Virus record (IMG/VR): IMGVR_UViG_3300025418_000119
Coordinates: 1 to 39,462 of that record
Origin: a virus
Length of the DNA: 39,462 nt
Direction: 5' to 3' (one strand)
The translations under genes were made by a program, and so were the position numbers. Positions 22 to 779 of the stretch are shown here, one piece after another. Each line of letters begins with the position of its first letter. The first letter of the stretch is position 1. The notes beneath the pieces were generated by a model. It worked only from the letters and a program-made list of their open reading frames with translations. It was not told the DNA's origin and ran no database searches.

Positions 22-98
22 TGGCGGTCCCAAGGGGATTCGAACCCCTGTTGACGGCGTGACAAGCCGCTGTAATGACCAGGCTATACTATGAGACC
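22..98 (-). tRNA. tRNA-Asp (GTC)
   Basis: On the minus strand a full cloverleaf can be drawn. The acceptor stem pairs GGTCTCA with TGGGACC, the anticodon stem CGGC/GCCG holds loop TTGTCAC (anticodon GTC), the T-arm carries TTCGAAT, and the 3' end is discriminator G plus an encoded CCA. It is the last tRNA of the unit that starts at the promoter near 751-779. Confidence 0.95.
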
Positions 99-168
99 AT
101 ATAGAAACACACTAGAAGAGGCGACCTCGTGGCCACAAGTTCCTGCTTATCTCTAATGTGTTTTTATA
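99..168 (-). ncRNA. Element A, closed RNA-like spacer between tRNA-Asp and tRNA-Lys
   Basis: This spacer fills the gap between two tRNA genes. Its ends pair: 105-115 with 153-163, 10 of 11 positions as DNA, and the odd pair (112/156) becomes G-U in a minus-strand RNA. Inside are a GAGG-CGA-CCTC hairpin (118-128) and the palindrome GTGGCCAC (129-136). There is no T-loop or CCA, so it is not a tRNA. Processing of both tRNAs would release it as a closed hairpin. The function is unknown. The nearest known parallel is the stable RNAs C and D of the T4 tRNA cluster; the comparison rests on position only. Confidence 0.5.
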
Positions 169-242
169 TGGTAGGGGCACAGAGAATTGAACTCTGGTTT
201 ACCGGTTAAAAGCCGGTTACTTTACCACTAAGTTATACCCCC
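169..242 (-). tRNA. tRNA-Lys (TTT)
   Basis: Minus-strand cloverleaf. The acceptor GGGGGTA pairs with TGCCCCT with wobbles at the ends, anticodon stem ACCGG/CCGGT holds loop CTTTTAA (anticodon TTT), the T-arm CAGAG/CTCTG holds TTCAATT, and CCA is encoded after discriminator A. Confidence 0.95.
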
Positions 243-377
243 AAAATCAAACCATTTGTTTTGCTGACGCACTATTTGCTATGCTCAACGAGGATTAGCG
301 GCCGCATTACCGTTTATGTACATAGTTACTCAGGGTTGACGTTTCCCCCATGGCTTACGTCAGCAAAACAAATGGTT
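243..377 (-). ncRNA. Element B, RNA-like spacer closed by a 20-bp perfect stem
   Basis: Positions 250-269 and 358-377 form a perfect 20-bp inverted repeat around an 88-nt interior. The left arm starts 7 nt from tRNA-Lys and the right arm touches element D. The interior has a GCGGCCGC palindrome (298-305) and alternative short helices (279-283/321-325 and 285-289/335-339) that cross each other and could form a pseudoknot. No ORF or tRNA signature is visible. A structured RNA cotranscribed with the tRNAs is the simplest reading; an insertion-element remnant is possible, but no transposase trace is seen. Confidence 0.5.
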
Positions 378-438
378 ATGGTAGGAGAGGTCGCCTATGC
401 CTCTCTTTACTAAATGACTTGTTTATAACCTCTACCAT
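378..438 (-). ncRNA. Element D, small closed RNA-like element
   Basis: ATGGTAG (378-384) pairs with CTACCAT (432-438), and inside GAGAGG (385-390) pairs with CCTCTC (400-405) around a 9-nt loop. The element starts directly after the right arm of element B and stops two bases before element C. Its size is near that of a tRNA and its minus-strand 3' end resembles CCTACCA, but it lacks a T-loop and an anticodon arm, so I do not call it a tRNA. A decayed tRNA is an alternative. Confidence 0.4.
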
Positions 439-440
439 AC

Positions 441-638
441 TAAAACACATTAGGACGTCAATGCCGTTACCACCAGGGTCTTCTCACGGTGCCGTCCACC
501 GATAAGGCAATGTCCACATTACACTTCAACTTAATCCAGCACCGTCGGATGGCTTCCTGTGATTATGGCCAGAGTCAGCACGGCTGCTGATAATTCTCTG
601 CCAGTCACCTACTGGAGTTGGTAACCTAATGTATTTTA
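441..638 (-). ncRNA. Element C, candidate structured noncoding RNA of about 198 nt
   Basis: Nested complementary segments are visible: P1 441-453/626-638, P2 466-472/619-625, P3 486-492/539-545, P4 570-574/596-600 with an apical hairpin 576-580/585-589, and P5 601-605/611-615. None of these helices cross. The only P1 mismatch (446/633) becomes G-U on the minus strand, which agrees with transcription in the tRNA direction. P1 ends three bases from the tRNA-Glu CCA. The closing stem resembles that of element A (AAAACACATTAG-like arms). I do not recognise a known family; I looked for hammerhead, group I intron and tmRNA hallmarks without success. Confidence 0.55.
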
Positions 639-641
639 GTA

Positions 642-716
642 TGGTACTCCGTACCAGAATCGAACTGGTCTTCCGGCCGTGAAAGGGCCGTGTCCTAACC
701 GATAGACGAACGGAGC
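642..716 (-). tRNA. tRNA-Glu (TTC)
   Basis: Minus-strand cloverleaf. The acceptor GCTCCGT pairs with ACGGAGT, stem CGGCC/GGCCG holds loop CTTTCAC (anticodon TTC), the T-loop is TTCGATT, and CCA is encoded. It is the first tRNA downstream of the promoter at 751-779. Confidence 0.95.
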
Positions 717-750: not shown

Positions 751-779
751 ATTGTATCACAACTAAATCTTTTTGTCAA
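751..779 (-). promoter_or_regulatory. Sigma70-type promoter of the Glu-Lys-Asp tRNA unit
   Basis: On the minus strand TTGACA (774-779) is followed after exactly 17 nt by TACAAT (751-756), preceded by TGTGA. This is a near-consensus promoter about 35 nt upstream of tRNA-Glu. It should drive tRNA-Glu, elements C, D and B, tRNA-Lys, element A and tRNA-Asp. Confidence 0.85.

Follow-up and report, generated by a model that had tools for sequence, protein, structure and literature searches.

A candidate structured RNA family behind the promoter and boxA-like leader of tRNA arrays in T4-like phages

The window, as we call the whole 39,462-nucleotide (39.5-kb) stretch of viral DNA analysed here (virus record G000), is part of the genome of a T4-like lake phage. 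Its PHROGs matches are to clamp loader, sliding clamp, SbcC/D-like subunits, helicase, scaffold and tail sheath proteins. The first 2 kb are taken up by a minus-strand tRNA array, which runs, in order, through a promoter, a boxA-like sequence, tRNA-Glu, the elements E1, E1b and E2, tRNA-Lys, the element E3 and tRNA-Asp (Table 1). E1, the subject of this report, is about 200-210 nt long and lies between two tRNA genes. The first-pass annotation had described it as an ORF-free element downstream of tRNA-Glu and a strong promoter, and this much holds: no good ORF covers E1, and both the tRNA (716-642) and the promoter (779-751) stand upstream on the same strand. Two neighbouring minus-strand features are recorded here for completeness. 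Positions 1480-1569 hold a tRNA-like gene that ARAGORN missed and that scores 37 bits, below threshold, with the Rfam tRNA-Sec model; judged by its position, it is probably a serine tRNA with a long variable arm. Positions 982-1200, between tRNA-Cys and the tRNA-Glu promoter, encode a 72-aa ORF without a PHROGs match, and a related ORF occupies the same place in locus L065. The relatives to which we compare the window are IMG/VR metagenome contigs, some of them 160-180 kb long.

Table 1. Features of the tRNA array and of E1 in the window, with the evidence for each.
Feature	Position	Strand	Evidence or remark
tRNA-Asp(GUC)	22..98	-	ARAGORN
E3, short hairpin, stem from tRNA-Lys ACCA to tRNA-Asp UGGU	99..170	-	z = -3.6
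tRNA-Lys(UUU)	169..242	-	ARAGORN
E2, second structured element, same spacer, perfect 20-bp arms	243..378	-	z = -4.9
E1b, small hairpin between E1 and E2	376..441	-	fold z = -2.4
E1, whole structured RNA element; overlaps ACCA end of tRNA-Glu	433..645	-	60-sequence family, covariation
P1 closing helix, 3' strand (CCTAATGTGTTTTAGTATGGT)	434..454	-	partner 625-645
P6 domain	455..517	-	per-helix covariation; P7 de novo in divergent set
P6; P6b; P7	515-517/455-457; 506-512/459-465; 498-501/487-490	-	
GUAAUG motif joining P2 and P6 domains	517..522	-	RUAAUG in nearly all 56 members
P2 domain	527..620	-	per-helix covariation; P2b, P3, P4 de novo in divergent set
P2a; P2b	617-620/527-530; 611-615/536-540	-	
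P3; P4; P5	605-608/559-562; 585-589/576-580; 551-553/541-543	-	
P1 closing helix, 5' strand (ACCATACTAAAATACATTAGG)	625..645	-	21 bp with 434-454
tRNA-Glu(UUC), CCA encoded	642..716	-	ARAGORN; Rfam tRNA 52.2 bits
boxA-like sequence GTTCTTTAAAA	733..743	-	exact fit to GYTCTTTAANA
sigma70-like promoter TTGACA-17-TACAAT, TG before -10	751..779	-	11/12 matches

The boxA leader, which the first-pass annotation overlooked, is the strongest clue to how E1 is produced. Equivalent promoters stand at the same place in most homologous loci. The boxA-like sequence of the window matches perfectly the published gamma-proteobacterial consensus GYTCTTTAANA (PMC5725501), a consensus that may not apply to the host. 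This pattern occurs twice in the window, where 0.42 matches are expected, and one of the two is the leader site. Upstream sequence is long enough in 54 distinct E1 copies, and in 45 of them the leader has a boxA-like core, compared with 22 of the 2158 windows taken in front of other tRNAs; 33 copies have a perfect GYTCTTTAANA within 215 nt, with about 0.05 expected in all, and nine copies have no boxA match. When all fetched loci are considered, 73 of the 108 distinct perfect matches fall at most 40 nt upstream of tRNA-Glu(UUC) or tRNA-Gln(UUG). A GAAA-tetraloop hairpin resembling boxB stands directly 5' of boxA in 29 of 95 boxA leaders, the window not among them, and in none after shuffling. 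Finally, we note an inverted repeat (GAGTGTTGT...ACAACACTC, 774-806) just upstream of the window's -35 box, with a counterpart, TGTTGT...ACAACA, at the same place in many other boxA leaders; it could be either the terminator of the upstream unit or a regulator site.

What is the evidence that E1 is a structured RNA? The minus strand of positions 438-641 folds with -75.6 kcal/mol (z = -4.5), a value reached by none of 200 shuffles. The plus strand of the region also folds well (z = -4.15), so thermodynamics alone cannot choose between the strands, and we assigned E1 to the minus strand because of the promoter, the strand of the tRNAs and the conservation of the sequence. The six sets of complementary segments listed in the first-pass annotation are all present on the minus strand where it had placed them, and as stems they fare unequally among 30 homologues. 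The closing stem is paired in 98% of cells and the apical hairpin 576-580/585-589 in 100%, with covariation at every pair of the hairpin. The other four are weaker: 466-472/619-625 is paired in 74% of cells, 486-492/539-545 in 75%, 570-574/596-600 in 76% and 601-605/611-615 in 67%, the consensus partner of 611-615 being 536-540 and not 601-605. The closing stem itself had been drawn too short and said to start three bases past the tRNA end; it spans 21 bp, 434-454 with 625-645, and begins inside the tRNA's own 3' ACCA.

The first homologues came from a search for loci with the neighbouring heat-shock-like protein, and all of them lay behind tRNA-Glu(UUC). The set was then widened by three DNA pattern scans of IMG/VR, each directed at a different part of E1, and by a covariance model, R1, built from 30 sequences, which found further, more divergent members at 66-148 bits and E below 1e-15. 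In total, 60 distinct homologous sequences are found in IMG/VR. Weaker R1 matches, with E of about 1e-8 to 1e-3, are left out of this count; they are the opposite strand of true members or short hairpins with nothing but the outer stem in common. The pattern matches L092 and L098 proved to be coding sequence and were dropped, as was L087. In Rfam 15, whose families include GOLLD, ROOL, tmRNA, RNase P RNA, 6S RNA and ribozymes, positions 433-641 of the window have no match at E up to 10, and the E1 elements of the divergent members L124 and L228 have none at E up to 1; the matches that appear at relaxed thresholds are to tRNA or due to chance. Three E1 variants used as queries gave no convincing match among GenBank phages, where a 24-nt match in Vibrio phage Va1 and an Erwinia phage match with E = 3, both inside genes, are taken as chance. 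Likewise, the exact E1 core pattern occurs in none of the GTDB species genomes.

Covariation defines the structure of the family. In an alignment of 56 distinct sequences fitted to the covariance model (A5), 97.4% of the cells at the 59 consensus pairs are paired, and two-sided compensatory changes occur in 41 of these pairs. The 550 two-sided cells, counted in a family whose sequences are not independent and were retrieved by pattern, lie far above both the shuffles (142.2, sd 13.2; none of 500 as high) and the slid-partner controls (35-95 cells). Because A5 had been fitted to the model, we made a second alignment, A6, of 24 divergent copies with MAFFT alone, among which only L112 had been in the model; from A6, RNAalifold regains P1, P2b, P3, P4 and P7, with two-sided changes in 28 of 43 pairs. 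The architecture is that of a 21-bp helix, P1, enclosing a P2 domain, composed of P2, P3, P4 and a small P5, and a P6-P7 domain. In A5, P1 is paired in 98.0% of cells, with two-sided change in 11 of its 21 pairs, and P4 has 23-34 two-sided cells per pair. The core contains invariant unpaired nucleotides, UAGGU, and the nearly invariant GUAAUG in the strand that joins the two domains. In addition, a UUAC that follows P1 in all members might form 3-4 bp with GUAA, both sides being nearly invariant. We considered a switch in which GUAAUG replaces the 3' strand of P1, and do not claim it: the similarity is present in most members and fails in the L013/L165 group. Taken at the level of sequence, these data support E1 as a previously uncatalogued family of folded phage RNAs, and the new class of phage noncoding RNA suspected in the first-pass annotation is thus supported as a conserved structured RNA family. 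The family, its structure and its place behind promoter and boxA are carried by the sequence evidence itself.

E1 shares its array with other structured elements. E1b is confined to the closest relatives of the window. E2 is represented by 37 distinct sequences, of which almost all lie in the spacer downstream of tRNA-Glu; its inner hairpins show compensatory changes, and it has no Rfam match. It is more widespread than E1, and the two stand in tandem in many phages. The outer stem of E3 resembles P1 of E1, and the same frame recurs in other spacers, where an E3-type stem bridges two tRNAs, one strand coming from the CCA end of the upstream tRNA and the other from the opening bases of the downstream one. 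E3-type hairpins follow tRNA-Gln or tRNA-Lys in many loci with a common frame, CCATATAAAAACACATT...AGTGTGTTTCTATATGG, often including the same A/C mismatch. Another structured element, E4, of about 150 nt and with 20-bp arms, is present at L006:5452-5660, L082:5040-5243 and L068:15304-15456. Across E1 and its flanks, L006 and the window share 99.5% identity, and L006 has E4 in the place of E2, which, from the sequences, looks like a cassette exchange. An ORF-poor spacer family of about 180 nt (L065:14775-15045, L068:15701-15940 and L091:4276-4486) lies between a different tRNA pair in each phage (Ala-Met, Tyr-Asp and Arg-Ile). Finally, ARAGORN reports in a phage tRNA array a tRNA with anticodon CUA, labelled tRNA-Pyl (L077:15938-16012), which is a possible amber suppressor.

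Where does E1 stand relative to the leader and to the tRNAs? With few exceptions it is the first or second unit downstream of the sigma70-like promoter and the boxA-like sequence, and among the phages surveyed it is seen only in early array positions. Its start falls in the ACCA end of a tRNA in 43 of 54 copies (42 tRNA-Glu and 1 tRNA-Gln), a Glu-slot count that is inflated by the many loci fetched with E1- or E2-internal patterns and that does not represent independent events, E1, boxA and tRNA-Glu sharing one locus so that their association is partly shared ancestry. The fairer control is the tRNA-Gln leaders, where E1 is rare. The other 11 of the 54 copies lie directly behind the leader with no intervening tRNA; ten of these start 43-49 nt after the start of boxA, and six run within 2-6 nt into a tRNA-Glu on their other side. 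All 11 have boxA, and thus E1 keeps its place behind the promoter and boxA, not behind the tRNA.

The closing helix belongs to a broader pattern. Stems of at least 15 bp flush with the CCA end are found at 116 of 1138 tRNAs, mostly tRNA-Glu, tRNA-Gln and tRNA-Lys, and at 2 with a control offset; common descent and the manner of retrieving loci both inflate these counts. A promoter lies in the 130 nt upstream of 70 of the 116 tRNAs with such a stem, compared with 78 of the 1022 others, and 62 of these 70 also have boxA. Similarly, in tRNA-Gln operons, which were fetched regardless of their own spacers, 23 of 25 stems go with a promoter. The interiors enclosed by these helices vary, from E1, E2 and E4 to hairpins of 60-100 nt, which suggests a single processing frame around different RNAs, with E1 as its largest and best conserved interior. 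An effect limited to tRNA-Glu, tRNA-Gln and tRNA-Lys, which share the U34 modification, was also considered; the link to promoter and boxA explains Glu and Gln better.

How might such an RNA be made, and what might it do? We propose, with a probability of roughly one half, that E1 is a new structured RNA family that issues from an rrn-like unit of T4-like phages, is excised and acts in trans. Host RNA polymerase would start at the strong promoter, and boxA would load host NusB/S10 and associated factors, so that Rho would not end the long untranslated tRNA transcript. As it emerges, E1 would fold into its two-domain core and 21-bp closing helix, in most members with the ACCA end of tRNA-Glu. 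P1 would act like the leader-trailer helix of pre-16S rRNA, cut probably by RNase III, and RNase P and 3' trimming would join in, releasing the tRNAs together with an E1 RNA some 170-200 nt long, whose conserved core might then act in trans as a stable phage RNA. Since the arrangement copies that of the rrn operon, E1 would probably be produced and excised in the manner of a small rRNA; by this analogy we infer that it would be co-transcribed with the tRNAs under Nus-type antitermination and excised at the helix. The core is conserved beyond the needs of a processing site, which argues for a function of its own, in trans as our first choice and in cis as our second.

The cis alternative, which we hold tentatively and at clearly lower odds, is that E1 is part of the antitermination signal itself, modifying RNA polymerase together with boxA in the manner of the HK022 put RNAs or the EAR element and so letting the long untranslated tRNA array be read to its end. 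A trans role need not be promoter-proximal in nearly every phage, and on this point cis action fits at least as well: place is kept better relative to promoter and boxA than to the tRNA, as the 11 of 54 copies directly behind boxA illustrate, positions are early throughout the phages surveyed, and the unpaired UAGGU and GUAAUG of the core are invariant or nearly so. However, boxA alone suffices for formation of the Nus complex in rrn (PMC10250234), a long closing helix is unnecessary for such a role, and related boxA-led tRNA-Gln and tRNA-Glu operons do without E1, holding E2, E4 or a short hairpin instead. That these other elements fill the same slot implies that the slot is independent of the E1 core. 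In its fullest form, also possible and no better than a minority view, E1 and boxA would together form the phage counterpart of the signal for rrn antitermination and maturation, with E1 acting in cis. If this were true, T4-like phages would copy the cell's rRNA operon to express their tRNA arrays, and E1 would be a new class of polymerase-modifying or maturation-scaffold RNA.

The remaining alternatives deny E1 one or another of these properties. It is improbable that E1 is only a processing spacer, whose helix serves as a nuclease site between tRNA-Glu and the next tRNA around a functionless interior. Long CCA-flush helices with quite different interiors at the same slot fit that idea, as do several spacers (for example, window E3 and L021) in which the 3' strand reaches just into the start of the next tRNA, but a mere spacer would not be expected to have an interior conserved in sequence with every internal helix covarying, and a single cut would not need the E1-E2 tandem of many phages. 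A ribozyme that cuts itself from the tRNA transcript might likewise be imagined from the multi-helix junction, the invariant unpaired bases and the closing helix that joins both ends. We regard it as very unlikely, given that E1 of the window, L124 and L228 has no Rfam match to the catalytic core of group I or II introns, HDV-like or other known ribozyme families, that the helix ends can vary and that the helix alone recurs with other interiors. Still less probable is a mobile element with terminal inverted repeats inserting behind tRNA genes. In keeping with it are inverted arms some 20 bp long, near relatives that differ in whether they have the element, and the replacement of E2 by E4 in L006, which is otherwise nearly identical to the window; yet E1 occupies one fixed slot, has no copies elsewhere in the surveyed arrays and no protein, and its arms vary by compensatory changes, as an RNA helix does. 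Recombination between related phages explains the cassette exchange, and the fetched loci contain no copies at unrelated sites with target duplications, which argues against a recent mobile element. Finally, a chance fold of an intergenic spacer would be consistent with the good folding of either strand and with the frequency of inverted repeats in spacers of this kind, but this explanation is refuted by 60 homologues with hundreds of compensatory changes, and we give it virtually no weight.

Phage tRNA arrays are long transcripts without translation. To our knowledge, how they escape Rho and how they are cut into tRNAs are both poorly known, and an rrn-like leader with a conserved structured RNA makes both questions testable. 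With 60 sequences and strong covariation, E1 is a well-supported RNA family and a candidate for Rfam. It also bears on an old question, the role of the non-tRNA RNAs in T4-type tRNA clusters.

Among known systems, GOLLD and ROOL are large structured phage RNAs of unknown function that are often near tRNA islands (PMC12286853). E1 is likewise a structured phage RNA near tRNAs, but many GOLLD (RF02032) members are above 800 nt whereas E1 is about 210 nt, the structure differs, and neither family matches the E1 of the window in Rfam at E up to 10. As a separate observation, the tRNA array of one phage with E1 and E2 holds a GOLLD RNA (L091:311-775, minus strand, 189 bits), and ARAGORN calls a tRNA-Asn within that stretch. 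The first-pass annotation had also pointed to two small, stable RNAs without known function that T4 encodes among its tRNA genes, RNA C and RNA D (species 1 and 2 RNA). RNA D begins directly after tRNA-Arg, as E1 usually begins after a tRNA. Unlike E1, RNA C has a tRNA-like T arm at its end, and both lack a long helix beginning at the CCA end of a tRNA; kinship is not borne out, as a search of the T4 tRNA cluster (L100) with R1 gives no match at E up to 1. The HK022 put RNAs and the EAR element are promoter-proximal structured RNAs that act on elongating polymerase. E1 is promoter-proximal and structured as well, and differs in its association with boxA and in its long closing helix. In E. coli rrn operons, NusB/S10 are brought in by boxA, and 30S formation depends critically on a leader-trailer helix longer than 17 bp, which encloses the rRNA and is where RNase III cuts (PMC10250234); with 21 bp, P1 exceeds this length. 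In the E. coli rrn operon and the E1 unit alike, promoter and boxA are followed by a structured RNA that a long helix encloses, whereas the E1 unit is viral, encloses about 170 nt of non-ribosomal RNA and usually includes the 3' end of a tRNA in its helix.
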